A stretch of DNA of 58,392 bases, from NCBI RefSeq assembly GCF_008520305.1, contig NZ_ML703300.1, positions 1-58,392 on the forward strand, given 5' to 3'. The notes beneath the pieces are model-generated. The model had not been told where the DNA came from and ran no database searches. It was given only the letters and a program-made list of their open reading frames with translations. The position numbers and the translations under genes were made by a program. The stretch is from Mesorhizobium sp. SARCC-RB16n (GTDB lineage: Bacteria; Pseudomonadota; Alphaproteobacteria; Rhizobiales; Rhizobiaceae). Positions 2,628-24,065 of this stretch are shown here, piece after piece (position 1 is the first letter of the stretch; each line of letters starts with the position of its first letter).

Positions 2628-3883
2628 CTAAATCCTCAAGAGAGAAAGCGCGGCATAGGGCGCCTGTGACAAGCCAAGCACGCTCGCCAGCGTCGGCGCG
2701 AACTGATTGGCATTCGCCTCCTCAATGATCTGCGGCGCGATGTTGCCACCGGAGAGAATGAACATGCGATCGTCCTGCCGGCTGCCTGGCCGAAAGCCAT
2801 GCGTGGAAATCGACCGCGGCTTGCCGAGAGCGGTCAATTCGCCTGTTGCATCCACTGGCCGCTCCTCAAAGGAATGCCCTGGCGGCGCAACGAACATGGC
2901 GATCGACCCGCGCAGAGGCTCCGGCAAGTGTAGATCATTCCAGCGTTCAACACCGAAATCCGACAATCGCTCGGTGGCCTTCTCCAAGTCGCCGGGGTTC
3001 GTCAGAGAGACGTAAAGACTTGCTCCCTCCGTCATCCAGAGCATGTCTGGAATGACCGCCTCGGGGAAGATCGCGGTATCGACCGCGCCATGCCCGTGGT
3101 CGCTGGCAATCGAAATCACATAATCGTCGCGCCGGTCCGTGCGATCAAGAGCCGCCAGCAGGTTGCCGATCAACATGTCAGCGAATTCGATGGACCAGAT
3201 CGCAGCAGGACTGTCGTAGCCGAGAGAGTGCTGAAACGCATCCGGCATCTCGATCTCTGTCAGGATCAGATCCGGCGGCTGATCGGAGCCAAGCAGGGCA
3301 ACCGCTGCGCGGTTTAGAAATTGATCGAGCGCCAAGCCCGCGATCAATTGCGGCGCGCCCTCATCGACCGGATTGAGGAATGCCTCCATGTCTGTCAGCC
3401 AGCCGCGGCAAGCCGACCCTTGGCATCATAAATGGCGCGGCAGGCGGCGAGAGTCTCCCGAGGTACCATCTTGCTGAAGCGGTGACCGGTCACGAAGCCG
3501 CGCAACCACCAGGGCGAGACATGGATCGATGTGTCGGCGGGATCAACCAGCGCCTGACCGATGGCCGCAACATCAAGGCCGGCTTTGTTGGCGTGTGTTG
3601 CAAGGGTTGGGGCCTGCAAATCCGCGGCGAGAGGTGCTACGAAAATGTCGCCCCGAAAAATGTGATTGCCGTAGATGCCATGCACTTCCGGGCCAACGCC
3701 AGTCAACATCGTCGCCCGGCCAGGCACGGAAGTGGCTGGAATCCCGGATTTCAGGCGGCGAACGCGCAGGCCGCTGTCGGCCAACCGTCTCATGTTCGGA
3801 AACCGGTGCGCATAGGTTTCGAATGTGTCAGCGCTGACGCCGTCGACGAGGACTGAGATGAGCTTCTTTTGCATCGGGAACAT
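2628..3883 (-). pseudogene. Alkaline-phosphatase-superfamily phosphodiesterase A, frameshifted
   Basis: Two adjacent minus-strand frames encode the two halves of one protein homologous to the intact 408-residue enzyme at 15962-17188. The N-terminal part (3395-3883) has the first metal-ligand Asp (VLVDG), the VPGRATMLTG nucleophile motif with Thr and the HGIYGN block. The C-terminal part (2628-about 3403) has PDAFQH, SDHGHG and STHGFRPG, which carry the other metal ligands. The first frame stops after KGRLAAAG, while the +2 frame reads on as GWLTDMEAF across that stop, so a single 1- or 2-base indel explains the break. All catalytic residues survive on either side, so the event is recent or the sequence has an error here. 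It is the last gene of importer operon A and starts 3 bp beyond the permease stop. Confidence 0.85.
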
Positions 3884-3886
3884 CCA

Positions 3887-4720
3887 TTAGCTGAGCGTCG
3901 GATCGAGTTTGTCGCGCAGGTAATCGCCAAGGACGCTGACCGCCACAGCCGTCGCCACGATGACGATGCTGGGGGCGAGCAACATCCAGGGAGCGCGTGT
4001 GATGTATTCGCGGCCGGTCCCAACCATAACGCCGAGGCTGGTCATCGGCGGCTGGACACCCAGACCGAGGAATGACAGGCCGCTTTCGACGAGAACGATT
4101 TCCGGAAAGGTCACGGTCGCCGCAACCAGGAGCGTGGCGGCGCTGTTTGGCAATATGTGTCGAAGGTAGATACGCATGGGATGAGCGCCGAGCTGACGTG
4201 TTGCGCCGGCGTAGCCTTGCGCGCCCGCAACCAATGCCAGTCCCCTCGCCAGGCGGGCATTGCGTTCCCAGCCGTAAAGCCCCATCAGGCCGACAAACAG
4301 CACCAGCGAATTGCCGAAAAAGGCCAGCATCGCAAGCGCGACGATGAGAAACGGCAGTGAAGCCTGAACGTCGATCAGCAGCAGCAGGAAATGCTCGATG
4401 AGCCCGCGGAAATATGCCGCGACAAACCCGATTGCCGTTCCAACGAAGACGCTGATTAGCGTTGCGCCGAAGGCGATCAACAAGCTCGTGCGGATTGAGA
4501 AGTACAAACGGGAAGCGACGTCACGGCCCAAATCGTCGGTGCCGAACAGGTGCGCGGCGGTGCCGCCGAAACCGACAGGCGGAGCCAGGCGGTGGCGGAG
4601 ATCCATTGCGGTGATGTCATGCGGCGCGATCAGCGGAGCGGCGATTGCAATCAGGAGCATGAGGCAAAGCCAGAGCGACGCAATCAGCGTCGGACGGTCA
4701 ATCTTTTGTTTCTTCCGCAT
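3887..4720 (-). CDS. ABC importer A permease, DppC/OppC type
   Basis: An inner-membrane permease of 277 residues in the dipeptide/oligopeptide (BPD_transp_1) family. There is an N-terminal hydrophobic helix, then LFGTDDLGRDVASRLYFSIRTSLLIAF, the usual DppC signature, several more membrane spans and an EAA-type loop around YAGATRQLGAHPMRIYLRHILPNS that contacts the ATPases. The C-terminus LGDYLRDKLDPTLS is also typical. It lies 9 bp downstream of the DppB-type gene and 3 bp before the phosphodiesterase. Family membership is clear. The substrate is not; the linked phosphodiesterase argues for a phosphodiester or phosphonate ester rather than a peptide. Confidence 0.9.
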   Translation of the reverse strand: MRKKQKIDRPTLIASLWLCLMLLIAIAAPLIAPHDITAMDLRHRLAPPVGFGGTAAHLFGTDDLGRDVASRLYFSIRTSLLIAFGATLISVFVGTAIGFVAAYFRGLIEHFLLLLIDVQASLPFLIVALAMLAFFGNSLVLFVGLMGLYGWERNARLARGLALVAGAQGYAGATRQLGAHPMRIYLRHILPNSAATLLVAATVTFPEIVLVESGLSFLGLGVQPPMTSLGVMVGTGREYITRAPWMLLAPSIVIVATAVAVSVLGDYLRDKLDPTLS

Positions 4721-4729
4721 GCGGCTTGC

Positions 4730-5671
4730 TCAGTGCGATGCGGAGCGATTGGTCCGCAGGCGCGGATCGATGACGCCATAGAGCAGATCCATCATCAAGT
4801 TGGCTGACGTCATCGTCAGCGCAACCAGGAAAAGGATCACCTGCACGACCGCGAGATCGCGGTTTCCAACCGAAACCACCAGGAGTTGGCCAATGCCTGG
4901 CCAGCCGAAGACGTTTTCGACCAGCACCGCGCCGGCCACTTGCCCACCAAGCATGAGGCCCAACAGGGTCAGCACGGGGATGAGCGCATTGGGAAAGGCG
5001 TGATAGTGGATGACCTGGCGCCAGGTGACCCCCTTGGCACTGGCAGCCACCACATAGAGCTGTGACAACACCTCGATCATCGCGCTGCGGGTAAAGCGGG
5101 CGATGACCGCTGCGCCGCCGATGCCAAGGGTGAGCACCGGCAGGACGGCACTTTGCCATTTGTCAGCGCCGCCCGATGGGAACTGGCCGAGCGTCACCGA
5201 GAAGATCAGGATGAAGATTAGCCCTAGCACAAAGCTCGGCACCGTGAAGCCGAGCACGGTCAGCATCATCACGGACCTGTCGATCCAGCTGTCACGATGC
5301 ATGGCGGCATAGGCGCCGATCGGGATGCCGATCAACACGTTGAGCGCGAGGGCCGGAAGCATCAGCGTCAACGTCAGAGGCATCCTCTCAAGCACCAGCT
5401 CTATTGCGCGCTTGCCGCCCAGCATCGAGTTTCCAAAGTCTCCATGCAGGGCTGCCCAGAGATAGCGGACATACTGGACGTAAAGAGGCTGATCCAATCC
5501 CCACCGCTGGCGGAATGCTTCGAGATCCGGAGCGCGAGCGCTCGGCCCCAGGATTTGCAGCGCGGGATCGCCTGAGGCACGCAGCACCAGGAATGTCAGC
5601 GTGACGACCACCACGATCGAGAGCGCGGCCCGAAGTATCTTGGGGCCAATGTAAAAAGCCAGGGATGTCAT
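4730..5671 (-). CDS. ABC importer A permease, DppB/OppB type
   Basis: A 313-residue inner-membrane permease that pairs with the DppC-type subunit. It shows the usual DppB features: an N-terminal helix followed by VLRASGDPALQI, then the long DLEAFRQRWGLDQPLYVQYVRYL segment, GDFGNSM, and an EAA loop at YVVAASAKGVTWRQVIHYHAFPNALIPVL. The C-terminus reads DLLYGVIDPRLR. I chose the ATG at 5671 because it overlaps the upstream ATPase stop by 4 bp (ATGA) and gives the standard length. An upstream in-frame ATG would add 38 residues inside the ATPase gene. Confidence 0.9.
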   Translation of the reverse strand: MTSLAFYIGPKILRAALSIVVVVTLTFLVLRASGDPALQILGPSARAPDLEAFRQRWGLDQPLYVQYVRYLWAALHGDFGNSMLGGKRAIELVLERMPLTLTLMLPALALNVLIGIPIGAYAAMHRDSWIDRSVMMLTVLGFTVPSFVLGLIFILIFSVTLGQFPSGGADKWQSAVLPVLTLGIGGAAVIARFTRSAMIEVLSQLYVVAASAKGVTWRQVIHYHAFPNALIPVLTLLGLMLGGQVAGAVLVENVFGWPGIGQLLVVSVGNRDLAVVQVILFLVALTMTSANLMMDLLYGVIDPRLRTNRSASH

Positions 5672-6630
5672 CCGTTTGCCACCAGATGGCACGCAACTCG
5701 TCGGTTGTGTCCCGTTGCTCGGACCGGTGGCTCGCTCTTTCGACATACATCTTGCGCCAGAGCACAGCGCGGATGGAAGGGACATCCCGCCGGCCGCTCG
5801 GCCGGACTTGGCGGCTCGCCGGCCAAGGGCACGTAGTGCGCAAAGCCGCCGGAAAGTCGTGGCATCGCCGAGACAAGGGCGCGGGTGTATGGATGAGCAG
5901 GCTGATCGATCACGACTTCAGCCTGTCCTTCCTCGACGACCCGACCCAAATACATGACGACGATGCGGTCGCTGACATGTCGAACGATCCTGAGATCGTG
6001 GCTGATGAACAAAATGCCCAGCCCGCGCTCGCGCTGAAGATCCATGAGCAGGTTGACGATCTGCGCCTGAACCGAAACATCGAGCGCCGACACCGGCTCA
6101 TCGCAAACCAGCAGCGAGGGGTTTGGCGCAAGCGCGCGCGCCAGCACCACGCGTTGGCGTTGTCCTCCGGAAAGCTGATGCGGATAAAGCGCTTGATGAT
6201 GCTGGGTCAGACCGACCGCTTGCAGAAGCCCGAGAACGCGCTCGGCACGATCTTCAGCTTGCCCAATCCGGTGAATGATCAAGGGCTCGGCAATCAAATC
6301 ACCGACATTCATGCGCCGGTCGAGCGCTGCCAGTGTATCCTGGAAGACAAGCTGCATGCGCTGCCGCTTTGCGCGCCATTCCTTTGTGTCAGCCGGCGGG
6401 AGTGGAATTCCCTCGAACAGGACCTGCCCGCTGTCGGCTTGCTCCAAACCGAGCGCAATGCGTCCAGTGGTGGATTTTCCGCAGCCAGATTCGCCGACGA
6501 CGCCAGTGGTCTCGCCTTTTCTGACCTCGAGCGACACCCCATCGACGGCCGTCAGCGACTTTTTCCGGCCGAAGACTTGTCTCCCGATCGGGTATCGGCG
6601 GCTAACCTCATTGAGATGCAACAATGTCAC
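5668..6630 (-). CDS. ABC importer A ATP-binding protein, OppF/DppF type
   Basis: A cytosolic ATPase of about 320 residues that powers importer A. It has Walker A GESGCGKSTT, Q-loop FQDTLAALDRRM, signature LSGGQRQRV, Walker B SLLVCDEPVSALD and the H-loop FISHD. The C-terminal oligopeptide-type extension carries the cysteine cluster CPFHPRCALAQDVC. I chose the GTG at 6630 (VTLLHLNEV) because it forms a GTGA overlap with the preceding ATPase stop; the upstream ATG would place 28 unrelated residues in front. The LTAVDGVSLEV segment before Walker A is typical of the F-type subunit. Confidence 0.88.
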   Translation of the reverse strand: MTLLHLNEVSRRYPIGRQVFGRKKSLTAVDGVSLEVRKGETTGVVGESGCGKSTTGRIALGLEQADSGQVLFEGIPLPPADTKEWRAKRQRMQLVFQDTLAALDRRMNVGDLIAEPLIIHRIGQAEDRAERVLGLLQAVGLTQHHQALYPHQLSGGQRQRVVLARALAPNPSLLVCDEPVSALDVSVQAQIVNLLMDLQRERGLGILFISHDLRIVRHVSDRIVVMYLGRVVEEGQAEVVIDQPAHPYTRALVSAMPRLSGGFAHYVPLAGEPPSPAERPAGCPFHPRCALAQDVCRKSEPPVRATGHNRRVACHLVANG

Positions 6631-7658
6631 TGGCGCGCCCCCGAAATGGCATGGACACAACGGACGACGTGCCGCGACGAAACGGTCGTAAGATCGGGTC
6701 CAATGGTGCTGCATCGGGGATCGGCATTTCGGCAGCGGGGCGCATAGGCGCAGCCCGAGGGCAAGACGCCGTAGGGTGGCACCCCTGGAATTGACGTGAG
6801 CCTGGTGCGTGGCCCGTCCGAGGGAGGGATCGCCCCGATGAGATCACGCGTGTAGGGATGTTGTGGATCTGTCAAAAGCGTTCGGGTTGGCGCTGCCTCG
6901 ACAATCCGCCCGGCATACATGACACTCACCCGGTCACAAACCGCTGCGACCGCAGCGAGATCGTGGCTGATCATGACCAGCGCCATGCCGGTATCGCGTT
7001 GGATCTGTTTGAGCAGCAGCAGGATCTGCGCTTGAACCGTGGCATCGAGCGCGGTCGTCGGCTCATCCGCGACAAGCAGCTCGGGTTGACCGGCAAGCGC
7101 AATGGCGATCATAACCCGCTGGTTCTGACCACCTGACAGTTCGTGCGGATAAGCATCTATCCTGCTTGCGGCGTCGGGAATGCCAACCTGGTCCAACAGC
7201 CGTTTCGCCTCAGTGCGTGCGGCGCCGCCGGTCAGCCCCCGATGCAGGCGCAGTGTCTCGGTGATCTGGGCACCAATGCGGTGGACCGGATTGAGGGCGC
7301 TCGCCGGATCCTGGAAGATCATCGCGATGCGACCGCCTCGCACCTTATCCAAAACCGGCTGCGGCGCACCGGCAAGGTTAATATCGTCCACCCAAGCTTC
7401 ACCGCTGATGGTTGCGGATTTTGGCAGCAGGCCGAGCACGGCCCGCCAGGTGACCGACTTGCCGCAACCGGACTCGCCGACTATGCCGACCGCCTCGCCC
7501 TTGTTGACGATCAGGTCGACGCCGTGCAGCACCGGCAAGCCGCCAAACGCCACCTCCAGGCCGGCGATTTTGATGGCAGGCCTGGGTAGAGGATGATCAG
7601 GGCGGAACAGCGCGGGTCCCGCGCTGTTCCTGGTCAATGTGGTGAGCATCGAGCTCAA
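6627..7658 (-). CDS. ABC importer A ATP-binding protein, OppD/DppD type
   Basis: A 343-residue ATPase that pairs with the OppF-type subunit to energise importer A at the inner membrane. Walker A is GESGCGKSVT, the Q-loop region is FQDPASALNPV, the signature is LSGGQNQRVMIA (Asn at a position usually Arg or Met), Walker B is [12 protein letters not shown] and the H-loop is MISHD. The C-terminal extension has CAYAPRCRNADPRC. The start overlaps the stop of the binding-protein gene by 4 bp (ATGA), so translation is probably coupled. A second Met at residue 4 is possible as the start. Confidence 0.9.
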   Translation of the reverse strand: MSSMLTTLTRNSAGPALFRPDHPLPRPAIKIAGLEVAFGGLPVLHGVDLIVNKGEAVGIVGESGCGKSVTWRAVLGLLPKSATISGEAWVDDINLAGAPQPVLDKVRGGRIAMIFQDPASALNPVHRIGAQITETLRLHRGLTGGAARTEAKRLLDQVGIPDAASRIDAYPHELSGGQNQRVMIAIALAGQPELLVADEPTTALDATVQAQILLLLKQIQRDTGMALVMISHDLAAVAAVCDRVSVMYAGRIVEAAPTRTLLTDPQHPYTRDLIGAIPPSDGPRTRLTSIPGVPPYGVLPSGCAYAPRCRNADPRCSTIGPDLTTVSSRHVVRCVHAISGARQ

Positions 7659-9214
7659 GCCACCGGCTCAGACGGCATTTTTGGACCGAGATACATTTGC
7701 GGTAGCGGATTTGGCTGCCAGACAACATCTTTCTTCTGGCCGTAGATGAACGGCATCGAGTGCAGCGGCGTGATACAGGGATCGTCGATCTCGACGATGT
7801 CCTGCATGCGCTTGAACGCGGCTTTGCGTTTGGCTAGATCGGTCGTCGTTTCGAGCTCGTGACCGAGTTTGTTGAACTCGTCGTTGGTCCAGGCGCCGGT
7901 CGATTGCAGGTCATTGGTCGGCCCGATGATCTGCCAAAGCATCGAAACGGGGTCGGCGTAGAAAGCTCCACCGGAGGTGTCATTGATGCCACCAATGTTG
8001 CCGACCTGATCCCAGTTCTCGCACATCATCAGCTTGACGTTGATGCCCGCGGCCTTCCACATCTCGACCAGCGCCTGATTATCGGCTAGCTGCATCGGGT
8101 AGTAGGTCCCGACAGTCGGGTAAGGGATCTCCTCGCCCTTGTAGGACGACTTGGCGAGCAGTTCCTTGACCATGGCCGGATCGAAGGACACGCCTTTGCG
8201 CTCGGGATCGTTGATCGCCCCGAAGATCGGCAACTGCCAGCCATTGAGCGCTTTGGCACGACCATTCCAAAGACCATCGGCCAACGCATCGCGATCGATG
8301 GCGAAGGCCAGTGCACGGCGCAGATTGACATCCTTCAGAACTGGCGTCTTGAGCGGAGCGAAGGTCAGGAAGCGAAACCACATGGCCTCGCCCCCCGTCA
8401 CGGCAAGGCCGCTGACGCCATCGATCTCGGAAATGTGGTCGGGCGTGACATCGGTCACGATGTCGTAGTCGCCGGCCTTGAGACCGGCGATGCGGGCTGC
8501 AATCTCGGGCAGGCGCTTGAACCGGATGGAGGCGAAAGGCGGCTGGCCGCCCCAATAGTCATCGTGGGCAACCAGCGTGATCTCGTCACCGGTCCGCACG
8601 TCTCCGATTTTATAGGGACCCGTGCCGATCGGCTTTGCTGCCCAGGCGTCATAGTTCTTGGCGGCGTTCCAGGCCTTGGCGCTGACAATCTGTGAGCCCC
8701 AGGCGCCGAGGCGATTGGCGAAAACGGGATCTTCCGTAGCGGTGACCAGGCGGATGGTTTGATCGTCCACTTTCTGGACATCGGCGATCGACGACAGGAA
8801 GTTGGCGAAGACAGCAGCACCTGGGGCCTTCTCGCCGCGCAGCCGCTCCGGGCTTAGCGAAAAGACGACGTCATCGGCCGTCATTGTCGAGCCGTCATGG
8901 AATTTGACGTTGTCGCGTAAGACGATTTCATGCGTCTGCGCATCGATCTGCCTCAGCGATTTGGCAAGTGCGTAGTTGAGGCGGAAATTGTCGTTATAGT
9001 CGGTCCGCAGCAGCTGATCGTAGATGCTGTACTGCACCCGCCAGGAAACATTGGCGATGGAGGATGCGTCCACCGGCTCCAGAATGGTACGCAGATCCTG
9101 TACCGCAATATTGAGGCTGGGGCGCTGGCCGGCAGCCAGGAGCGTGCGCGGCAAGGCCAATGCGCCGGCCGCCATCGCCGTCATGCCGAGAAATGTGCGA
9201 CGTGTCGTTTGCAT
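7655..9214 (-). CDS. ABC importer A periplasmic binding protein (SBP_bac_5 family)
   Basis: A 519-residue solute-binding protein of the oligopeptide-binding (DppA/OppA) family. It begins MQTTRRTFLG and a hydrophobic stretch, which is a twin-arginine (Tat) signal, so it is probably exported folded. The start at 9214 is preceded by a strong AGGAGAGG ribosome site; a longer in-frame start at 9286 lacks one. Family landmarks include FHDGSTMTADDVVFSL, GTGPYKI and RRALAFAIDRDALADGLWNG. It is the first gene of importer operon A and lies 221 bp downstream of the DeoR-type regulator, on the same strand. Its ligand cannot be read from sequence; the family also binds opines, heme, nickel complexes and sugar phosphodiesters. 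Confidence 0.9.
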   Translation of the reverse strand: MQTTRRTFLGMTAMAAGALALPRTLLAAGQRPSLNIAVQDLRTILEPVDASSIANVSWRVQYSIYDQLLRTDYNDNFRLNYALAKSLRQIDAQTHEIVLRDNVKFHDGSTMTADDVVFSLSPERLRGEKAPGAAVFANFLSSIADVQKVDDQTIRLVTATEDPVFANRLGAWGSQIVSAKAWNAAKNYDAWAAKPIGTGPYKIGDVRTGDEITLVAHDDYWGGQPPFASIRFKRLPEIAARIAGLKAGDYDIVTDVTPDHISEIDGVSGLAVTGGEAMWFRFLTFAPLKTPVLKDVNLRRALAFAIDRDALADGLWNGRAKALNGWQLPIFGAINDPERKGVSFDPAMVKELLAKSSYKGEEIPYPTVGTYYPMQLADNQALVEMWKAAGINVKLMMCENWDQVGNIGGINDTSGGAFYADPVSMLWQIIGPTNDLQSTGAWTNDEFNKLGHELETTTDLAKRKAAFKRMQDIVEIDDPCITPLHSMPFIYGQKKDVVWQPNPLPQMYLGPKMPSEPVA

Positions 9215-9379: not shown

Positions 9380-9435
9380 CGACCGCATTCCTGCGAGGAA
9401 CATGCCGCAGCAGGGTCAGGGTCATTTATGCCGGG

Positions 9436-10212
9436 TTACGACGGCTTTTGCTGCGGATATAGGACTTGGGCACCAGCGGCTTCGATCTGCTTCAGCACGT
9501 CCAGTGCCGGCTTCCGGTCGGTGATGATCGAGGAAATCGCTGAATGGGGCAGGATCCTGTAACGCACCGACAAGCCAAATTTGGTGTGATCGGCGAGAAC
9601 GACGATTTTCCGCGTCTGTTCGGAAAGTGTCGCGGCGAGGTCCTGCCCGACCTGTTCATGGTCGAAGACGCCTAATGCGGGATGCACGGCGTTGACCCCA
9701 ATGAAAGCAACATCGATCTGCTGTTCGCGAAGCGTGCGCAGACCAAGGAACCCTGTCACGGTCCGGAAGTCTGGATCGAATTCACCCCCCAGCATGACGA
9801 CGCGATGCCGACGGCCGTCGGCAGCTGCGATCGCTATATCGACCATGTTGGTGACGATGCGCATCTCCGGCAAGGCCGAGATGCGACGAGCCAGTGACAG
9901 CACCGTACTGCCGCCCCCCAAGAAGAGGTTCTGCCCGGGCTTGAGAAGACCGAGCGCTATCTCGGCAATAGCGTTCTTTTCCGCACGCTGAGAAATCGCG
10001 CGCGACGAGACGGCCAACAGCTTAGGCTGCTGCGTGGCGACGGCCCCACCATGGACGCGCACGATCAAGCCGTCCTGTTCGAGTTGTTTGATATCGCGGC
10101 GCGCGGTTTCTTCGGAGACATTGAAGTGCAGCATCAGGTCGCGGATGCGCACTTCGCCGTCCGCGTGGATCATCTCGATGAGTTTTTTCTGGCGGCTGTG
10201 ACTGAACGACAT
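9436..10212 (-). CDS. DeoR-family transcriptional regulator
   Basis: A 258-residue DNA-binding repressor. The N-terminal winged helix-turn-helix runs LIEMIHADGEVRIRDLMLHFNVSEETARRDIKQL, followed by the typical VRVHGGAV wing. The C-terminal DeoRC sensor domain has LFLGGGSTVLSLARRI and HTKFG. Members usually sense phosphorylated sugars. I chose the Met at 10212 (MSFSHSRQKK) because the family begins just before the helix-turn-helix; a Met 16 codons upstream is possible. It lies directly upstream of importer operon A on the same strand and diverges from importer operon B, so it may control both. The arrangement recalls accR before the agrocinopine (sugar phosphodiester) uptake genes of Agrobacterium, which is an inference from family knowledge. 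Confidence 0.9.
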   Translation of the reverse strand: MSFSHSRQKKLIEMIHADGEVRIRDLMLHFNVSEETARRDIKQLEQDGLIVRVHGGAVATQQPKLLAVSSRAISQRAEKNAIAEIALGLLKPGQNLFLGGGSTVLSLARRISALPEMRIVTNMVDIAIAAADGRRHRVVMLGGEFDPDFRTVTGFLGLRTLREQQIDVAFIGVNAVHPALGVFDHEQVGQDLAATLSEQTRKIVVLADHTKFGLSVRYRILPHSAISSIITDRKPALDVLKQIEAAGAQVLYPQQKPS

Positions 10213-10424
10213 GGTTCTCTCGATTTGGCCTTGGCGGAGACTAACCAAGTCAACGAGCAAATGTCACTGGGACAAGCGCTGGGGCCGAGCGTTGGCCAAA
10301 ATTGGCCCCGGCTTTGAGGCGAGAAACTCAATCGAATTTCCATCGACGCCGGAGCTTTGCTCGTGGCGACCGGCGCACCGGCTGGACGCGTCATGAAAGC
10401 GTTACAAGATGGACCTATGAAAGG

Positions 10425-10442
10425 TACCTAGACATCTGGTCA
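10425..10442 (+). promoter_or_regulatory. Candidate PhnF operator upstream of importer operon B
   Basis: The motif TACCTAGACATCTGGTC is almost identical (one mismatch) to 18079-18095 upstream of phnG. Its core, CTAGA-CA-TCTGG, is an imperfect copy of the perfect palindrome CTAGACATCTAG at the second site. It lies about 45 bp before the first permease gene. A GntR-type operator is the natural reading, and PhnF (17264-17965) is the only GntR-type regulator in the window. Confidence 0.6.
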
Positions 10443-10485
10443 TCACAGATGGCTTCAGGTCATTCGCTGCGACAGAGGAGGTCCG

Positions 10486-12281: not shown

Positions 12282-12349
12282 CAGGCGCAGCTCCGACCCG
12301 TTTCCTGCAGGAAAGACCAAACAACATTCCCTCACCAAGGAGACCCCTA

Positions 12350-13864: not shown

Positions 13865-13895
13865 TCACCAGTCCTAACCAGGAGGGAAGGTCAGG

Positions 13896-17263: not shown

Positions 17264-17965
17264 ATGAAGCGTTGGGAAATCGTTCGCGCGGGCCTTCTCA
17301 GCGATATCGACGCGGGTGCATTCGAAGATCGACGGTTACCAGGCGACTTCGTCTTGGCAGAGCGATTTGGTGTCAATCGCCATACCGTTCGAAATGCAAT
17401 CAAGGCGCTGGAAGCCGAAGGTGCTCTTCGGGTTCAACATGGTGTCGGCACTTTCGTTGCGGAGGATTTTGTGTCGCACAAATTGGACCGCGATCCGAGG
17501 TTCACCTACAAACTGCTTGGCCAGAACAAATCCGTTAAGCGCGAAATCCTGTCGATCGCCCAGGTCTCCGTCGGACCCGATATTGCAGATCATCTCAAGA
17601 TCGCCCCGTCGGCCCTCGTGACCGAAGTGAAATCCATCTCGTTCATCAATGAGTGGCCTCTGGCGACCGGATCGAGCTACCATCCCGTCGACAGGGTCCC
17701 TGGTCTCGCGGCCGCGTTCGAAGGGTTGAACTCCTTTACCGCGGCCTTGAAACGCTGCGGGATCGCCGAATACAAGCGCAAGTGGACCCGCATAACGGCG
17801 CGCCGGCCGACGCAGCAGGAAGCTCAGCTGCTGCGCATATCGTCGTCCAGTCCCGTCCTCTATGAGACCAATGTCGACGTCACGCCTGACGGCGCGCCGA
17901 TAAAATACGCGTTCAGCGCCATCCGCAGCGACAGATACGAATACCTGATCGAGGCCGACACCTGA
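17264..17965 (+). CDS. phnF: PhnF, GntR-family regulator of phosphonate genes
   Basis: A 233-residue transcription factor of the GntR/HutC type. The N-terminal winged helix-turn-helix includes LPGDFVLAERFGVNRHTVRNAIKALEAEGAL and the VGTFVAED wing. The C-terminal part is a UTRA ligand-binding domain with RISSSSPVLYETNVDVTPDGAPIKYAFSAIRSDR. PhnF proteins repress phosphonate uptake and C-P lyase genes. It sits between importer operon B and phnG on the same strand, and a GC-rich hairpin follows its stop. Copies of one palindrome before both flanking operons are the best candidates for its binding sites. Confidence 0.9.
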   Translation: MKRWEIVRAGLLSDIDAGAFEDRRLPGDFVLAERFGVNRHTVRNAIKALEAEGALRVQHGVGTFVAEDFVSHKLDRDPRFTYKLLGQNKSVKREILSIAQVSVGPDIADHLKIAPSALVTEVKSISFINEWPLATGSSYHPVDRVPGLAAAFEGLNSFTAALKRCGIAEYKRKWTRITARRPTQQEAQLLRISSSSPVLYETNVDVTPDGAPIKYAFSAIRSDRYEYLIEADT

Positions 17966-17967
17966 GA

Positions 17968-17992
17968 CGCGCCCTGACGCGGGGGGCGCGTT
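17968..17992 (+). terminator. GC-rich hairpin just after phnF
   Basis: Arms ACGCGCCC (17968-17975) and GGGCGCGT (17985-17992) pair perfectly around a 9-nt loop, 2 bp after the phnF stop codon. No T-tract follows, so it may attenuate transcription or protect the mRNA end rather than act as a classical terminator. It separates phnF from the promoter region of phnG. Confidence 0.45.
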
Positions 17993-18078
17993 GGCCGCAG
18001 CTGTGAAGCGAGCAGCTTGCCGTTTATTCACCGGGTAAATAGCCGCCCGTCATCAAACCGTCGCAACCGTCTCATAGA

Positions 18079-18095
18079 TACCTAGACATCTAGTC
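18079..18095 (+). promoter_or_regulatory. Candidate PhnF operator upstream of phnG
   Basis: TACCTAGACATCTAGTC contains the perfect palindrome CTAGA-CA-TCTAG and lies about 31 bp before the GTG start of phnG. The same 17-mer with one change occurs at 10425 upstream of importer operon B. Symmetry, position and repetition support a repressor site. Confidence 0.65.
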
Positions 18096-18126
18096 TTCGC
18101 GGTCTGCCCCGTGCAGAATATGCGGC

Positions 18127-18612
18127 GTGAAGTCTCTGACAAATGGTGATCGTCCAGTGCGAAACGAAGTTGAACGAAGGCAGCGATGGATGGCGGTCCT
18201 CGCGCGCGCCAGCCGCGACGAGCTCGAACAGGCATACCTGGATCTGCCAAATGCGCCCGCTTACATTTGGCTGCGGCCGCCAGAGAGCGGCCTTGTTCTT
18301 GTGCGTGGGCGGACCGGCGAAACCGAGGCCTCCTTCAATCTCGGCGAGGTTACGACAACACGCTGTGCCCTCAAGCTCATCGACGGCACGACGGGGTTTG
18401 CATTTACCCTCGGTCGCGATCAGCGCCAGGCGGAACTTGCGGCGCTATTTGATGCGCTGTTGCAACGAGGCGACGAGACTGCTTCGGCCAGCTTGAAAGT
18501 CGTCTCCGAATTCGAGCACGCGCAATCCCTGCGCCGTGATCTCAAAAGCCGCAAGGCGGCTTCGACGAAAGTCGACTTCTTCGCAATGTCCCAAGCCAGA
18601 GAGCCTGACTGA
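18127..18612 (+). CDS. phnG: PhnG, C-P lyase core complex subunit
   Basis: A 161-residue subunit of the PhnGHIJ core complex, which in the cytosol transfers phosphonate to ribose and prepares carbon-phosphorus bond cleavage. The recognisable core begins ERRQRWMAVLARASRDEL and continues through GEVTTTRCALKL and GFAFTLGRDQRQAELAALFDALLQ. The start is a GTG at 18127, giving a length slightly above the usual 150. The stop overlaps the phnH start by one base (TGATG), so the genes are translationally coupled. It opens the phnGHIJKML operon. Confidence 0.93.
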   Translation: MKSLTNGDRPVRNEVERRQRWMAVLARASRDELEQAYLDLPNAPAYIWLRPPESGLVLVRGRTGETEASFNLGEVTTTRCALKLIDGTTGFAFTLGRDQRQAELAALFDALLQRGDETASASLKVVSEFEHAQSLRRDLKSRKAASTKVDFFAMSQAREPD

Positions 18613-19211
18613 TGAGCGCCATGGAGACCGCGGGGATCGAGCCTGGCTTTAGAGATCCCGTCTTCGACAGCCAGCATACGTTTCGATGCATCCTGGATGC
18701 CTTTGGATATGTCGGACGGGCCCAAGTGCTTTCTCGCGCCAACACGCGGATCGGCCCTCTCGATCCCGCGACCATCGCGGTTTGCCTGACACTGACCGAC
18801 TTTGAGACGCCGATCTGGCTTGATCCGGTGGCAGATTCGAAGCCGGTCCGAGATTTTCTCGCGTTCCACTGCGGCGTGACGGTCACCAGTGCAGAAGCAT
18901 CCTCGTTTGCCATCGTTGGCAATCCCGCGAGCATGCCGCGCCTAGATCAGTTCGCACTCGGAACCGACCTGGAGCCGCAATGCTCGACAACGCTTGTCAT
19001 TCAGGTCCCGGCTTTTGACGGTGGCCCGCTGGTGCGGCTGCGCGGCCCAGGTATCCAAAGCGACATCTCGCTGGCTATCCCAAGTCTTCCCTCCTGGTTC
19101 TGGGAGGACTGGCAGGCCAACCACGAGCTCTATCCAATCGGCGTGGATGTTCTCTTTACCTGCGGCAGTTCGGTGCTCGCCCTTCCCCGCAGCGTTTCAG
19201 TGGAGGTTTAG
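18612..19211 (+). CDS. phnH: PhnH, C-P lyase core complex subunit
   Basis: A 199-residue subunit of the C-P lyase core complex, close to the family's usual length. PhnH is a catalytically silent relative of PLP enzymes that joins PhnG, PhnI and PhnJ. Family segments seen are FRCILDAFGYVGRA, CLTLTDFETPIWL, FHCGVTVTSAEASSFA and GPGIQSDISLAIPSLPSWFWEDWQANHELYPIGVD-type sequence, normally near the C-terminus. It directly abuts phnI, whose ATG follows the TAG stop with no gap. Confidence 0.93.
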   Translation: MSAMETAGIEPGFRDPVFDSQHTFRCILDAFGYVGRAQVLSRANTRIGPLDPATIAVCLTLTDFETPIWLDPVADSKPVRDFLAFHCGVTVTSAEASSFAIVGNPASMPRLDQFALGTDLEPQCSTTLVIQVPAFDGGPLVRLRGPGIQSDISLAIPSLPSWFWEDWQANHELYPIGVDVLFTCGSSVLALPRSVSVEV

Positions 19212-20318
19212 ATGGCTTATGTTGCCGTTAAAGGAGGCGAGCAGGCGATCCTGAACTCGCACCGCCTGATTGCGGAAGAACGCCGCGGAGACGCTGCTGT
19301 TCCCGAGCTGACGGTCCGTCAGGTTGCCGAGCAGATGGGCCTGGCCGTCGACCGGGTGATGTGCGAGGGCTCCGTCTATGACCGGGAACTTGCCGCACTC
19401 GCGCTGAAACAGGCGCAAGGCGATGCCGTCGAAGCAATTTTTCTGCTGCGCGCCTACCGCACGACCATGCCGCGCTTCGCCGTCTCAAACACGCTCGATA
19501 CGGCACAAATGGCCATCCAGCGACGCGTTTCGGCAACGTTCAAGGACATACCCGGTGGCCACGTGCTTGGTTCGACCTACGAATACACGCATCGGCTCCT
19601 TGACTTCGATCTTCTCGATCCTGCGCCTTGCGAGGACACAAAGGCCAACATCGCGGACAGGCCGCTTGAATCCGGCGTCGGTCGAGCTTTCGACAGCATT
19701 CGTGACGAAGGCCTGATCGAAGTCGAAACAGCGCCAGCCGGGCAGCAGGCCGTTTTCGATCTGACACGAGAGCCGCTCAGTCTTCCGGCGGGGCGCGATC
19801 AGCGGTTGCAGAATCTCGCTCGCGGCGATGAAGGGTTCGTGGTCGGCTTGGCGTATTCCGCGCTACGGGGCTATGGCGCTGCCCACCCCTATGTCGGGGA
19901 AACGCGCGTTGGAGATGTCGCCGTCGAGATTGTGCCGGAGGAACTCGGCTTTGCGGTTTCCATCGGAGACATCACGGTGACCGAGTGCCAGATGCTCGAT
20001 CTGTTTGGCGGTTCAGAACTTCAACCTGCTCAGTTTACCCGGGGATACGGCCTCTCCTTTGGAAAGAGCGAGCGCAAGGCCATGGGAATGGCGATCGTCG
20101 ATCGATCCTTGCGCTGCCGGGAGTTGGGCGAGGAAGCGCGCTATCCAGTCCAGGACGAGGAGTTCGTGCTGGCCCACACCGACAATCTGGAAGCGGCTGG
20201 CTTCGTCTCGCACCTTACTCTGCCGCACTACGTCGACTTCCAGGCCGACCTGCAGTTCATACGACAATTGCGGCGGGAAAAGAGTGGCGACCATCTGGAC
20301 AAGGAGGCTGCGGAATGA
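19212..20318 (+). CDS. phnI: PhnI, C-P lyase core complex subunit
   Basis: A 368-residue subunit that, with PhnG, PhnH and PhnL, displaces adenine from ATP by phosphonate to give ribose-1-phosphonate-5-triphosphate. Landmarks are MAYVAVKGGEQAILNSHRL, LTVRQVAEQMGLAVDRVMCEGS, FLLRAYRTTMPRF and GYGLSFGKSERKAMGMAIVDRSLR, the last in the conserved C-terminal region followed by EFVLAHTDNLEAAGFVSHLTLPHYVDFQ-type sequence. Length matches the family. Its stop overlaps the phnJ start by 4 bp (ATGA). Confidence 0.94.
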   Translation: MAYVAVKGGEQAILNSHRLIAEERRGDAAVPELTVRQVAEQMGLAVDRVMCEGSVYDRELAALALKQAQGDAVEAIFLLRAYRTTMPRFAVSNTLDTAQMAIQRRVSATFKDIPGGHVLGSTYEYTHRLLDFDLLDPAPCEDTKANIADRPLESGVGRAFDSIRDEGLIEVETAPAGQQAVFDLTREPLSLPAGRDQRLQNLARGDEGFVVGLAYSALRGYGAAHPYVGETRVGDVAVEIVPEELGFAVSIGDITVTECQMLDLFGGSELQPAQFTRGYGLSFGKSERKAMGMAIVDRSLRCRELGEEARYPVQDEEFVLAHTDNLEAAGFVSHLTLPHYVDFQADLQFIRQLRREKSGDHLDKEAAE

Positions 20319-21259
20319 CCGCCAATCAAGAAGGTGCAGCCCGCGGCGGCCGCCGCTCAGCATACAATTTTGCTTATCTCGATGAGCAGTCCAAGCGGAT
20401 GATCCGGCGGTGCATCCTGAAGGCGATGGCTGTCCCTGGTTTTCAGGTTCCGTTCGGCAGTCGCGAGATGCCGCTCGCCTATGGGTGGGGAACCGGCGGG
20501 ATCCAACTGACGGCCAGTATCATCGGTCCGGATGACAGGCTGAAGGTGATCGACCAGGGCGCCGACGATGCGACCAACGCAGTGTCCATTCGCCGCTTCT
20601 TCAAGAAGGTTACCGGCGTCGAAACTACGGAACAAACGAGTGCGGCCACCATCATCCAAACTCGCCACCGTGTGCCCGAAACGGCTCTCGAGGAACGGCA
20701 GATCCTCATCTATCAGGTACCGTCTCCAGAACCATTGAAGCGGCTGGAGCCGAGGGAAGCCGAGACGCGCAAGATGCATGCCTACGGGGAATACGGTCTG
20801 ATGAGCGTTCAGCTCTACGAAGACATCTCCCGTTTCGGCCATATCGCGACAACCAACAGCTATCCGGTCATGACGAATGAACGCTACCTGATGTCGCCGT
20901 CGCCGATCCCCAAGTTTGACAACCCGAAGCTCGGGAAGAATCCAGCCATCCAGCTTTTCGGCGCCGGCCGTGAAAAGCGAATCTACGCTGTCCCGCCGTA
21001 CACACAGGTGCGCAGTCTCGATTTTGATGACCATCCATTCAAAGTGCAGCGATGGACCCAAAGTTGCTCGCTTTGCGGAGCAACAGAAAGCTATCTCGAC
21101 GAGATCTTGATGGACGATAAAGGGCAGCGCATGTTCGTCTGCTCCGACACCGACTACTGCGCGACGCGAAAGGAAAGCCAGCAAGCCAGTTCGAATGACG
21201 GGACCTCTGGCTCGCCTGCTCATCCATCGAGGGAAGCCGAAAAAGGGCCGAACTCATGA
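20315..21259 (+). CDS. phnJ: PhnJ, radical-SAM carbon-phosphorus lyase
   Basis: The 314-residue catalytic subunit that breaks the C-P bond of ribose-1-phosphonate-5-phosphate by radical chemistry. Cys251, Cys254, Cys276 and Cys282 have the same spacing as the four key cysteines of E. coli PhnJ (241, 244, 266, 272), shifted by 10. Three bind the 4Fe-4S cluster; the last corresponds to the thiyl-radical cysteine. Gly42 in AVPGFQVPFGSREMP aligns with the glycyl-radical Gly32. All chemistry residues are therefore present. The start at 20315 overlaps phnI (ATGA). The C-terminus carries about 25 extra low-complexity residues, and an in-frame upstream extension lies inside phnI and is not real. Confidence 0.96.
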   Translation: MTANQEGAARGGRRSAYNFAYLDEQSKRMIRRCILKAMAVPGFQVPFGSREMPLAYGWGTGGIQLTASIIGPDDRLKVIDQGADDATNAVSIRRFFKKVTGVETTEQTSAATIIQTRHRVPETALEERQILIYQVPSPEPLKRLEPREAETRKMHAYGEYGLMSVQLYEDISRFGHIATTNSYPVMTNERYLMSPSPIPKFDNPKLGKNPAIQLFGAGREKRIYAVPPYTQVRSLDFDDHPFKVQRWTQSCSLCGATESYLDEILMDDKGQRMFVCSDTDYCATRKESQQASSNDGTSGSPAHPSREAEKGPNS

Positions 21260-22056
21260 ACGCGGTCTCAAGACAAATACGGCCAGGCCGCCGACAGCCG
21301 CTCTTGTCCGTCAGCCACCTGACGAAGGCCTATGGAAGGACGTTGGGCTGCGAGGATATCTCCTTCGACCTCTTTCCAGGCGAGATCATTGCGATCGTCG
21401 GGGAATCAGGATCGGGCAAGTCAACGCTGCTCAATTGTCTTTCAGGGCAGATGGTGCCTGACAAGGGCTCTGTCGTTTACGCCATGCAGGACAAAGGGCC
21501 GACGGACGTCCTCACCCTGAAGGAACCAGAGCGTCGCAGGCTGATGCGGACGGACTGGGGCCTCGTCCATCAAAACCCGCGGGACGGTCTCAGGATGGCG
21601 GTGAGTGCCGGCGGCAACATCGGCGAGCGGCCGATGGGCCTCGGCGCCAGGCACTATGGCGACATCCGAAACGAGGCTCAAGACTGGCTCACCCAAGTCG
21701 AGATCGATCTCTCACGAACCGATCATCATCCCAAGACATTCTCCGGGGGCATGCAGCAACGCTTGCAGATTGCCAGGATCCTCGTGACCAGGCCACGCCT
21801 CGTCTTCATGGACGAGCCCACCGGCGGCCTCGACGTTTCCGTTCAAGCGCGCTTGCTCGACCTCCTGCGAGGCCTGGTCATGAACATCGGCGTCGCCGTC
21901 GTGCTGGTGACGCACGACCTTTCCGTCGCCCGGCTTTTGGCCCACCGGATCATCGTCATGCGGCGAGGCAATATCGTGGAGACAGGTCTGACCGACCAGG
22001 TCCTGGATGACCCGCACCACCCCTATACCCAACTTCTCGTTTCCTCGGTGCTTTAG
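21256..22056 (+). CDS. phnK: PhnK, C-P lyase ATP-binding protein
   Basis: A 266-residue ABC-type ATPase that docks on the PhnGHIJ core rather than driving a membrane transporter. It has Walker [12 protein letters not shown]-loop region HQNPRDGLRM, signature FSGGMQQRLQIARIL, Walker B LVFMDEPTGGLDVSVQARLLDL and H-loop LVTHDLSVARLLAHR. The GGLDVSVQARLLDLLRGLV sequence is characteristic of PhnK. The start overlaps phnJ by 4 bp and phnM follows with no gap. The importer ATPases in the window are longer and end in a cysteine-bearing extension that PhnK lacks. Confidence 0.95.
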   Translation: MNAVSRQIRPGRRQPLLSVSHLTKAYGRTLGCEDISFDLFPGEIIAIVGESGSGKSTLLNCLSGQMVPDKGSVVYAMQDKGPTDVLTLKEPERRRLMRTDWGLVHQNPRDGLRMAVSAGGNIGERPMGLGARHYGDIRNEAQDWLTQVEIDLSRTDHHPKTFSGGMQQRLQIARILVTRPRLVFMDEPTGGLDVSVQARLLDLLRGLVMNIGVAVVLVTHDLSVARLLAHRIIVMRRGNIVETGLTDQVLDDPHHPYTQLLVSSVL

Positions 22057-23256
22057 ATGCTCTTCGAAAACAATGCTCCCTGGAGCAGCCAGGCTGCAAA
22101 ACGCCAAGCGAAAGAACTGACGCTGACAGGCGCCAGATTGGTTCTGCCCGACGAATCCTTTGAGGGAACTGTCCACATCAGGGACGGTCTGGTCCGCGAT
22201 GTGTCCGCTGGCCGGAGCTCTCTGCCAACGGCGATGAACCTCGAAGGCGGTTACCTGTCGCCAGGGCTGGTCGATCTTCATACGGACAATGTCGAAAAGC
22301 ACGCGTTGCCGCGCGTCGGGGTGATCTGGAACCCGCTTTCGGCTGTCGTGGCCCACGACGCAGTGGTTGCGGCAGCCGGCATCACAACGGTCTTCGATTC
22401 CTTGTCATTGGGCTCCATGACGCGCGATGACACAACAAAGAGCGATAGGACGCGGATCGTGCCTCTGATCGTCGAGGCTATCGGGACCGCTCAACAACTT
22501 GGCCTCCTACGCGCGGATCACTTCCTCCATCTGCGCTGTGAAATAACCGATGAAGGCGTGGTGTCGGCGTTCGAACGGCACGGCGACAATCCGCTGGTCA
22601 AGCTCGTATCCGTCATGGACCACGCGCCTGGTCATCGCCAGTCGCCTCAGTTAGAGCGCTTCCGGGCGATGCAGATCAGAGACTATGGCTGGTCGGAAGA
22701 AGACGCCGACCGCCGCGTGGCGGAATGGATCGAAGCGTCCCGTACGATTGGACCTCAGAATCAAGCGAGGATCATTGCACGTGCACGGCAATTGCCGATC
22801 GCGAGCCATGACGACGAGACGCCTCAGCATGTTCGGGAAGCGCACCGCGCCGGCGTGACAATCTCCGAGTTTCCAACGACCCGGACTGCTGCAGAAACCG
22901 CGCATTCTCTCGGCATCCACATTTTGATGGGAGCACCGAATGTCGTGCGCGGGGTCTCTCACTCGGGAAACATCAGCGCACGTGAGCTGGCGGCCGCTGG
23001 TCACCTCGATATTCTTGCATCCGACTATGTCCCAGCGAGCATGTTGCATGCGGCCCTCCAGCTCACGCGGGACCCGATTGGGATGAGCCTTCCCAAGGCG
23101 ATTGCCACAACTAGCTTGAACCCCGCCTTGGCCACAGGCTTTACCGATCGCGGCGCGATCAAGATCGGAGCAAGAGCCGATCTTTGCCACTTTGTTGAAA
23201 TCGGTGACGTGCCCCTGGTGCGCGGCGTGTGGAAGGAAGGCGCCCGGGTGTTCTAA
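22057..23256 (+). CDS. phnM: PhnM, ribose-1-methylphosphonate-5-triphosphate diphosphatase
   Basis: A 399-residue amidohydrolase-fold enzyme that removes pyrophosphate from the ribose-phosphonate triphosphate intermediate. Metal-ligand motifs are visible: [12 protein letters not shown] near residue 75, [10 protein letters not shown] and [13 protein letters not shown]. The N-terminus (about 20 residues before [13 protein letters not shown]) is longer than usual; an internal start cannot be excluded, but the ATG immediately after the phnK stop suits translational coupling. In E. coli phnM follows phnL; here it lies between phnK and phnL. Confidence 0.94.
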
Positions 23257-23300
23257 CGCCGGCTGAGCTCCTCCTCGTATGCCTTCGCAAAGGAAATTCA

Positions 23301-24065
23301 ATGGAACATGCACTTGAGCGTCAAGCGCTTCGCGCCGTCGGTCTTACCAAGGCCTTTACGCTCCACACGCAGGGTGGGATCATTCTGCCCGTATTCAAAG
23401 ACATCGAGTTGACCGTGCGAGCTGGTGAATGCGTCTGCCTGCATGGGCCGTCCGGCGCTGGAAAGTCGACGCTATTGCGTTCCCTCTATGCCAATTACAA
23501 GCCGGACGCCGGACAGATCCTGGTGGATCACCAAGGCGAAACCGTCGATCTACTGGCGGCTGAGCCATGGGAAGTCGTCGAAATCCGTCGCAGCACGATC
23601 GGTTATGTCAGTCAGTTCCTTCGTGTCATTCCGCGCGTCACGGCTCTCGCCGTTGTCTCCGAACCGGCCATCGCCAAGGGGATGCCGGCCGATGAGGTCA
23701 AGGCACGCGCCAAGAGCCTGCTCACGCGACTGCGCATCCCTGAGCGACTTTGGTCGCTCGCGCCCGCCACCTTCTCCGGCGGCGAACAGCAGCGTGTCAA
23801 CATCGCCCGCGGCTTCATCATCGACTATCCAATCTTGCTTCTTGATGAGCCGACTGCCTCTTTGGATGCTGCCAACCGCGAGACGGTGGTTGAATTGATC
23901 CGCGAGGCCAAATCACGCCGCACAGCCATCGTCGGTATTTTCCACGACGAAGAGGTGCGCAACGCCGTCGCCGACCGCTTGTTTGAGGTTGGAAGGTCGG
24001 CCGAACCCGCTGTGCCTTCGTCGAAGTTCGCCACAGGCACATCGGTCGGAGCGCTAGTAGTGTGA
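23301..24065 (+). CDS. phnL: PhnL, C-P lyase ATP-binding protein
   Basis: A 254-residue ABC-type ATPase needed with PhnGHI for phosphonate ribosylation. It has Walker [16 protein letters not shown], the family-specific [23 protein letters not shown] segment, signature [15 protein letters not shown], Walker [13 protein letters not shown] and H-loop FHDEE in place of the usual SHD. The ATG at 23301 follows AAAGGAAA at a good distance; a start 24 codons upstream would overlap phnM. It closes the phn operon. No phnN, phnO or phnP follows. Confidence 0.94.

Follow-up and report, generated by a model that had tools for sequence, protein, structure and literature searches.

The window analysed here is a 58,392-nucleotide stretch of Mesorhizobium sp. 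SARCC-RB16n (contig NZ_ML703300.1). It carries two importer modules, here called A and B, and a complete set of carbon-phosphorus (C-P) lyase genes, phnGHIJKLM (assigned with Pfam and NCBIfam, and phnJ by tblastn). Module B, the hydrolase gene behind it and the phn genes probably form a pathway dedicated to a phosphonate diester or possibly a phosphate diester. Gene content and order, receptor family, phosphate contacts and active-site residues are visible in the sequence itself, as are an operator-like palindrome, purifying selection and a repeated linkage to phosphonate genes.

Domain assignments agree with the layout given in an earlier note on this DNA: two ATP-binding cassette (ABC) importers of the Opp type lie on opposite strands and differ in gene order, a DeoR-family gene separates them, and module B is followed by phnF and by the phn genes in the order G-H-I-J-K-M-L (Table 1). 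Module A (3887-9214, minus strand) comprises two permeases, two ATPases with oligo_HPY domains and an SBP_bac_5 receptor. In module B (10486-15934, plus strand) the order is two permeases, receptor, two ATPases; the PF01663 hydrolase, phnF and phnG to phnL follow up to 24065. The hydrolase that was said to end each module is intact in module B (15962-17188) but frameshifted in module A. The ratios of nonsynonymous to synonymous substitution rates (dN/dS) are 0.05-0.13 for the tested module B genes, phnI and phnJ compared with S. fredii, which corresponds to purifying selection.

In the proposed mechanism, the AccA-like receptor would catch a small polyol or sugar-like molecule via its phospho or phosphonyl group and the ABC importer would bring this ligand into the cell. 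A cytosolic hydrolase of the NPP type would split the ester into a free phosphonate and an alcohol, and the C-P lyase PhnGHIJKLM would take off the phosphorus. PhnF would repress both units via a common operator until an inducer or a need for phosphorus appears. Module A would be a second, diverged importer-hydrolase set beside the DeoR gene, with a hydrolase that is damaged in the window. The substrate, the cleavage chemistry, the binding of PhnF and the direction of regulation are inferred.

Receptors of the AccA family

AccA of the Agrobacterium acc system is the best PDB chain for both receptors, with E-values of 7.8e-93 for the module B receptor (SBP_B) and 9.2e-81 for that of module A (SBP_A). 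The best chains other than AccA reach 1.1e-37 and 6.8e-29, respectively, a gap of more than 50 orders of magnitude. According to the available part of PMC4526662, the phosphate is touched by Asn54, Ser419, Tyr375 and Tyr376 of AccA, the pyranose OH1 is anchored by Asn284 and Glu510 together with Asn54 and Ser419, and the ligands on record are one phosphate diester and one phosphoramidate. The residue called Glu504 there corresponds to a Trp when the chain is numbered to match the other residues, and was not used.

Each of 34 aligned rows of A- and B-type receptors retains the four phosphate contacts (17 rows of each type; among them are duplicate Microvirga plasmid records, two M. mediterraneum records and the second of two A-type receptors from pMLa). 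None of eight rows of other receptors keeps all four (L014, L018, L020, L036-L038 and two of L010, with L018 and L038 incomplete; related loci are given by L numbers, genomes by G numbers). The sequence at 12685-14208 of L005, meant as a control, turned out to be this second pMLa receptor of the A type; a duplicate row of it and a duplicate L014 row were not counted. The contacts to the sugar differ. Glu510 is replaced by Pro in 17/17 A rows and by Tyr in 17/17 B rows, so this pyranose contact is not kept. Glu434 is replaced by Ile in A rows and by Thr or Ser in B rows, and Asn284 by Trp in A rows, whereas it is retained in B rows. Since the phosphate clamp is kept and the sugar end is changed, we infer that the ligand is a phospho- or phosphono-ester.

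In pMLa (L005), the two A-type receptors stand in one gene row (10657-12219 and 12685-14208).

Hydrolases of modules A and B

The module B hydrolase matches PF01663 with 139.2 bits (cut-off 23), and Sulfatase is the sole other Pfam match. Six NCBIfam matches are all far under their curated cut-offs. Among these, phosphonoacetate hydrolase PhnA (TIGR02335, 35.3 bits, cut-off 407.55), which is also absent from the 50 best folds listed, and the phosphoric/sulfuric ester hydrolase PehA (NF045661, 25.2 bits, cut-off 900) were rejected as assignments. An AlphaFold model has a predicted local distance difference test score (pLDDT) of 89.9 and a predicted template modelling score (pTM) of 0.91. Foldseek ranks Xac NPP first and the glycerophosphodiesterase ENPP6 fifth, with TM scores of about 0.7.

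Residues D12, S50, N71, D208, H212, D255, H256 and H354 are invariant in 14/14 and 20/20 rows of two alignments, which overlap in the window protein and a Microvirga protein. The pairs S50/N71, D208/H212 and D255/H256 align to Xac NPP, and the aligned two-metal ligand set is present; roles are assigned by analogy with NPP enzymes. The putative nucleophile Ser lies within an invariant S-x-P-G-R, where Xac NPP has T-F-P-N-H. Presumably, this motif is closer to that of sulfatases and phosphonate monoester hydrolases than to the NPP motif. No leader peptide was seen by inspection and thus the enzyme should be cytosolic. It is predicted to be a phosphodiesterase or phosphonate-ester hydrolase.

In module A, four A-type homologues each align to the hydrolase as two pieces. 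For three of them the pieces adjoin at 3398-3410; for the fourth (L009) they are separated by a gap from 3398 to 3347. The pieces still have dN/dS near 0.1, and therefore the break may be a recent event or a sequencing error. Related substrates for both importers, as proposed in the earlier note, are plausible; only module B looks complete in the window.

A palindrome common to the importer and phnG promoters

A 20-bp palindrome with the consensus ATACCTAGA-CA-TCTAGGTAT (9-2-9) is present at two promoters of the window. In loci of the B type (the window, L001-L004, L006 with its duplicate L016, L007, L008, L015 and L017) it is found 5' of phnG in 10/10 and 5' of the importer operon in 9/9 with that promoter present; L007 ends before the importer promoter and is not in the latter count. 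The annotated permease start of L001 lies upstream of the palindrome, and the start was therefore set by homology. Operon and operator are thus kept in ten loci of nine strains, window included.

Beyond the B-type set, the fetched loci gave one match with up to five mismatches (L040), while L058 and L060 repeat genomes already counted. The palindrome was not found in A-type loci except L006, which itself carries a B module. The DeoR gene is 76-81% identical in the A-type loci L005, L006, L009, L011, L022-L028, L031 and L035. The common palindrome makes the importer, hydrolase and C-P lyase genes look like a single regulon. The phnF gene sits between the importer-hydrolase unit and the phnG unit, which makes PhnF the obvious candidate for binding the palindrome.

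Neighbourhoods in plasmids and genomes

A tblastn search of plasmids gave 23 records, and the 14 rhizobial ones (39-85% identity, 13 strains) were opened with up to 20 kb on each side. Thirteen list a legume source; the pMLa record lists none. PhnJ is encoded in the hydrolase stretch of 8/14 and aepX (>60% identity) likewise of 8/14; five records have both and three (L010, L012 and L013) neither. CDP-alcohol phosphotransferase genes (CDP, cytidine diphosphate) are carried by L012 and L013.

A scan of genomes with the single hydrolase gave no loci and an alignment-based scan gave 43, of which L015-L041 without the distant L040 are the closer ones. Twenty-four genomes from the latter scan, together with G350 and G395, make up 26 hydrolase-bearing whole genomes. 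PhnJ occurs in 23 of them, and in eight it is no more than 10 kb away from the hydrolase. Nine of the 26 have a close aepX on the hydrolase contig at a distance of at most 17 kb, and these nine include near-identical Mesorhizobium/Aminobacter islands (G009, G010, G011, G013 and G020). Three genomes have both neighbours and 14/26 at least one. A strong match to nodA was found in 17 of the 26, and an 18th (G024) is weak. The linkage to phn genes that the earlier note asked to be checked therefore holds for 8/26 genomes and 8/14 plasmids and not for the remainder, part of which carries phosphonate biosynthesis genes and a minority neither.

The neighbourhoods fall into several layouts. An A-type module with DeoR and biosynthesis genes and no phn genes in the stretch is found in L009, L011, L023-L027 and L035, and A-type copies joined to phn in L005, L022, L028 and L031. 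In a Microvirga plasmid (L006/L031), modules A and B stand back to back as in the window, but each has its own phn set; the A-linked set is not in the window. The plasmids L005 (pMLa) and L007 (S. chiapasense) have catabolic genes and no aepX in the stretch.

In L010, L012, L029, L032 and L039, a class III aminotransferase follows the hydrolase and the stretch lacks phnG-L. The first four also have a B-like receptor; none was scored in L039. The aminotransferase of L010 is weakly PbfA-like (184.2 bits, cut-off 525). It may represent another route for released phosphonate.

Several points weigh against a dedicated phosphonate diester pathway or narrow it. Eighteen of the 26 hydrolase genomes, including metagenome-assembled genomes (MAGs) of Trueperaceae and Anaerolineae, lack a nearby PhnJ, and MAGs of unrelated phyla are among the 12 with neither PhnJ nor aepX nearby, which sets a limit to the claim. 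Hydrolase and phn genes occur in L018, L019 and L020 in stretches that lack any receptor of the AccA type, and in L014 the receptor that accompanies the hydrolase and aepX genes is not AccA-like; an AccA-type importer is thus not indispensable. A 16-mer taken from the two window sites has three window matches at up to three mismatches, two of them exact, versus 0.37 expected, but as it was drawn from the sites themselves this low expectation is partly circular, and the relatives are the real test. The candidate role of PhnF at the palindrome is deduced from gene position. Agrocinopine itself is probably not the ligand, given the changes at Glu510 and Glu434 (and at Asn284 in module A). The core of the earlier proposal, agrocinopine-like import followed by cytosolic cleavage and C-P lyase, is strengthened by AccA as nearest solved relative, the kept phosphate contacts and the common operator, with a mixed outcome for the linkage to phn.

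Phosphonate biosynthesis genes and nodule expression

In relatives the system is linked to genes of phosphonate biosynthesis and of symbiosis, a connection that the earlier note did not see and that alters the likely meaning of the system. L003, L004, L008 and L014 lie beside rpoN/nifQ, and L009 lies between nifHDKENX and rpoN/nifQ. The annotated order in L009 is nifXNEKDH region, importer, DeoR, CobD-like, hydrolase, asnB, methyltransferase, CDP-alcohol phosphotransferase, cytidylyltransferase, aminotransferase, aepX, oxidoreductase/ferredoxin/P450, prxS, rpoN and nifQ. The aepX product, a phosphoenolpyruvate (PEP) mutase, passes TIGR02320 (353.5 bits, cut-off 319.55); the 568-residue CobD-like protein stays under its cut-off (170.6 versus 290.55 bits). 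The cytidylyltransferase matches 46 solved chains, with LicC second and the nucleotidyltransferase/aminotransferase fusion 6pd1, which we take to be PntC-AEPT, lower. For the CDP-alcohol phosphotransferase of L009 there is no Pfam match and all NCBIfam matches are below threshold. The strict CDP-alcohol signature occurs in 0/11 proteins and a relaxed form in 9/10, the exception being the 96-residue copy of L002. The opened loci have no annotated phosphonopyruvate decarboxylase; our guess is a phosphonoalanine route with decarboxylation at a later stage.

A -24/-12 box combined with TGT-N10-ACA, the arrangement of NifA-dependent promoters, occurs at 12 sites in 363,019 bases of nine biosynthesis loci, versus 0.15 on average in 20 first-order simulations. 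Three of these sites precede prxS, three a P450 gene and two hypothetical genes. The remaining four, all close to phosphonate genes, comprise one each before the CDP-alcohol phosphotransferase gene of the sister plasmids L004 and L008, one before aepX of L009, where the first base is off consensus, and one at a distance of 0.7 kb from the L014 methyltransferase. In five of the nine loci (L001, L002, L003, L011 and L013) no such site precedes phosphonate genes. The window has five -24/-12-like sites, none with the upstream element, which are taken as background.

Expression data exist for M. loti R7A. In the available part of PMC3538637, lacZ activities in nodules of wild type and nifA2 mutant are 827/7.7 for pepM, 2456/16 for aatA and 862/22 for asnB, and those in broth are under 20. 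Mutants in the three genes are fully effective there, i.e. the genes are dispensable for fixation. NifA promoters are described in the same part as absent before these genes and direct activation as highly unlikely. The word phosphonate does not occur in the main text of PMC3538637. Judged by names and neighbours, the R7A genes appear to be those of L009. Among open-access titles and abstracts no account of this link was found apart from that paper (pepM expression in nodules), and a prior description is possible.

Among 394 family genomes, matches were found to the hydrolase in 5 (E-value limit 1e-40), to nodA in 23 (two weak) and to aepX in 11 (E-value limit 1e-80). Scoring was restricted to the best 4 to 8 candidates of each genome, and some absences may therefore be false. 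Four of the five hydrolase genomes also have aepX (hypergeometric probability 1.6e-6, or 4.7e-5 minus the search centre) and four have nodA (4.3e-5 and 5.9e-4, respectively); aepX and nodA coincide in 5/11 (1.6e-4), all with kinship ignored.

Alternative and extended readings

The most far-reaching possibility, which extends the phosphonate diester pathway and does not exclude it, is a phosphonate rhizopine: genes of symbiosis plasmids or islands (aepX, aminotransferase, cytidylyltransferase, CDP-alcohol phosphotransferase, methyltransferase, asnB and CobD-like) would make a diester in nodules, and free-living kin would consume it via the operon. This is a serious possibility that we put forward tentatively. 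It would jointly explain five facts: the opine-type receptor, the esterase with C-P lyase, the linked synthesis genes, the location on symbiosis DNA beside nif/rpoN, and the nodule-only, NifA2-dependent and dispensable expression in M. loti (PMC3538637, available part). The linkage of aepX to the hydrolase in plasmids and genomes, its co-occurrence and that of nodA with the hydrolase in the family, and the NifA-type sites at L004, L008 and L009 are consistent with it. Against it stand the denial of NifA promoters in the available part of PMC3538637, the five loci with no such site and the sister relation of L004 and L008. Seven of the 11 aepX-positive family genomes lack the hydrolase, the five aepX-linked islands named above are near-duplicates, and the CDP-alcohol phosphotransferase is under all family cut-offs. 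None of the seven biosynthesis genes scored above threshold in the window, and no such compound was met in the literature covered. The rhizopine reading draws on relatives and one published strain, not on the window.

Stated as an economy, this would be a nodule-expressed pathway from PEP to a phosphonate diester on symbiosis plasmids and islands of several genera, with the window as part of a consumer strain; such a scheme seems somewhat doubtful as a whole. The pathway would comprise PEP mutase, aminotransferase, activation with cytidine triphosphate, CDP-alcohol phosphotransferase, methylation and amidation. Synthesis would go with, or be exchanged for, a corresponding set of AccA-type importer, NPP-type esterase and C-P lyase, through which free-living kin would have a phosphorus source to themselves. 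Like L005 (pMLa) and L007, the window strain may only consume the compound.

Turnover of phosphonolipids or surface phosphonates, in which the importer would recover glycero- or glycosyl-phosphonodiesters from decorated lipids or glycans, is unlikely though it has some appeal. The nearest folds include the glycerophosphodiester phosphodiesterase ENPP6, the producer genes resemble those of head-group activation (the cytidylyltransferase matching LicC and 6pd1, the relaxed CDP-alcohol motif), and bacterial phosphonate capacity mostly serves cell surfaces according to the available part of PMC6697681. Nodule-specific, dispensable production in M. loti is not readily explained in this way, nor are the opine-type receptor and the association with nodA.

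Sensing or self-protection, with the cleavage product as effector of DeoR and catabolism secondary, would fit the producer islands with A-type module and DeoR but no phn in the stretch. There is a precedent in AccR with arabinose-2-phosphate as effector (PMC4526662, available part). This is rather improbable, as module B of the window and the A-type copies of L005, L022, L028 and L031 are joined to phn.

Scavenging of a phosphate diester, i.e. an agrocinopine-like sugar phosphodiester, with the C-P lyase adjacent owing to a common use in phosphorus starvation, agrees with the recorded AccA ligands (PMC4526662, available part) and with the cleavage of phosphate diesters by NPP enzymes, yet it leaves the operator common with phnG and the linkage to PEP mutase clusters unexplained and is distinctly improbable. 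A generic peptide or nickel importer beside phn by chance would match the PF00496/oligo_HPY family and the default 'oligopeptide' annotation, but is most improbable in view of the E-value gap to solved relatives other than AccA and the operon and operator kept across strains.

Comparison with known systems

The preferred phosphonate diester pathway has parts in common with several known systems. With the acc system of Agrobacterium it shares an AccA-family receptor, an Opp-type ABC importer, a cytosolic phosphodiesterase (predicted here) and, in module A, a DeoR-family regulator, the class to which AccR presumably belongs. It differs in that the hydrolase is of the NPP type (PF01663/Sulfatase matches only) and not like AccF, which we take to be a GDPD-type phosphodiesterase; in addition, sugar contacts of the receptors are replaced and C-P lyase genes follow. 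Like other phn operons, the window has phnF and a complete phnGHIJKLM; unlike these, it has an AccA-type importer and a hydrolase upstream. With the NPP family the hydrolase shares fold, aligned two-metal ligand set and the phosphate-contact Asn, but S-x-P-G-R replaces the T-F-P-N-H of Xac NPP and no leader is seen. With PhnA it shares superfamily and N-terminal similarity, and differs in its score far below the PhnA cut-off.

Known rhizopines are inositol derivatives that give carbon and nitrogen. Features that appear to be common to the mos/moc rhizopine systems and the proposed one are nodule-expressed, dispensable synthesis genes and a catabolic linkage on symbiosis DNA (in part after the available portion of PMC3538637), whereas phosphonate chemistry and other enzymes set the proposed system apart. 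The linkage of synthesis and catabolism genes is seen in relatives and not within the window.

Gene inventory of the window

Coordinates are collected in Table 1. No tblastn match to phnN or DUF1045 was found in the window at E 1e-3, whereas one or the other comes after phnL in the relatives L003-L005, L007 or L008. Families of the phnCDE type are absent among 40 window open reading frames (ORFs) scanned with Pfam. The annotation of L005, an incomplete table, lists no phnK between phnJ and phnL.

Table 1. Modules A and B, operator copies and C-P lyase genes of the window.
Feature	Position	Strand	Remarks
Module A hydrolase (PF01663), frame-disrupted	2628..3883	-	N-terminal part 3395-3883; C-terminal part 2628-3389, different frame
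Module A permease (OppC_N + BPD_transp_1)	3887..4720	-	domain match; dN/dS 0.064 vs S. garamanticum
Module A permease	4730..5671	-	start 5671 chosen by inspection; longest ORF from 5785
Module A ATPase with oligo_HPY	5668..6630	-	likely GTG start 6630 (inspection); longest ORF from 6714
Module A ATPase with oligo_HPY	6627..7658	-	domain match
Module A receptor SBP_A, AccA family	7655..9214	-	Tat-like leader MQTTRRTF (inspection); longest ORF from 9286
DeoR/GlpR-family regulator of module A	9436..10212	-	domain/family match; longest ORF from 10260
Operator copy 1 (9-2-9 palindrome), 4 mismatches to consensus	10424..10443	+	~43 bp 5' of importer operon
Module B permease	10486..11397	+	domain match
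Module B permease	11394..12281	+	domain match
Module B receptor SBP_B, AccA family	12350..13864	+	Sec-like leader MRRLLLAM (inspection); longest ORF from 12176
Module B ATPase with oligo_HPY	13896..14909	+	domain match
Module B ATPase with oligo_HPY	14906..15934	+	domain match; longest ORF from 14861
Module B hydrolase, NPP-type, alkaline phosphatase superfamily	15962..17188	+	408 residues; predicted cytosolic phosphodiesterase / phosphonate-ester hydrolase
phnF (GntR/UTRA regulator)	17264..17965	+	TIGR02325 183.4 bits, cut-off 156.8
Operator copy 2, 3 mismatches to consensus	18078..18097	+	~30 bp 5' of phnG
phnG	18127..18612	+	passes Pfam cut-off
phnH	18612..19211	+	passes Pfam cut-off
phnI	19212..20318	+	passes Pfam cut-off
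phnJ	20315..21259	+	tblastn agreement with annotated phnJ of related loci; start by inspection
phnK	21256..22056	+	TIGR02323 387.8 bits, cut-off 302.85
phnM	22057..23256	+	TIGR02318 474 bits, cut-off 390.55
phnL	23301..24065	+	TIGR02324 358.5 bits, cut-off 256.3; start by inspection, longest ORF from 23229

The longer matches of window DNA among plasmids are 75-87% identical to Sinorhizobium, Mesorhizobium and Microvirga. The C-terminal part of a plasmid-type glmS at 2-586 is 86.9% identical to a plasmid copy of a Mesorhizobium nodule isolate. A region at 28.5-33.7 kb is 80% identical to a plasmid of Mesorhizobium sp. 131-3-5, the same plasmid as L009; an RND efflux pump and a two-component system are encoded at 28465-35068 (minus strand). 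Three GGDEF-EAL proteins are encoded at 948-2522, 39544-42207 and 42560-44149, the first and the last of near-equal size and domain layout. A Gabija-type anti-phage system GajA/GajB occupies 48126-52390 on the minus strand (PADLOC, 925.8 bits for 50069-52390 and 826.2 bits for 48126-50072), and an IS110-type transposase lies at the window edge (56965-58200).

Significance

Rhizobia are thought to reward kin with nutrients made in nodules. A phosphonate rhizopine, if real, would supply phosphorus, which is often limiting in soil, via a chemistry that few microbes undo. It would give a function to the nodule-expressed, fixation-dispensable M. loti genes left unexplained in the 2013 study and a natural substrate to rhizobial C-P lyase, and the AccA receptor family would reach from crown-gall opines to mutualist symbionts. 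The safer reading, a dedicated pathway for a phosphonate or possibly phosphate diester, would likewise provide a testable ligand class for receptors that are now annotated as oligopeptide-binding.

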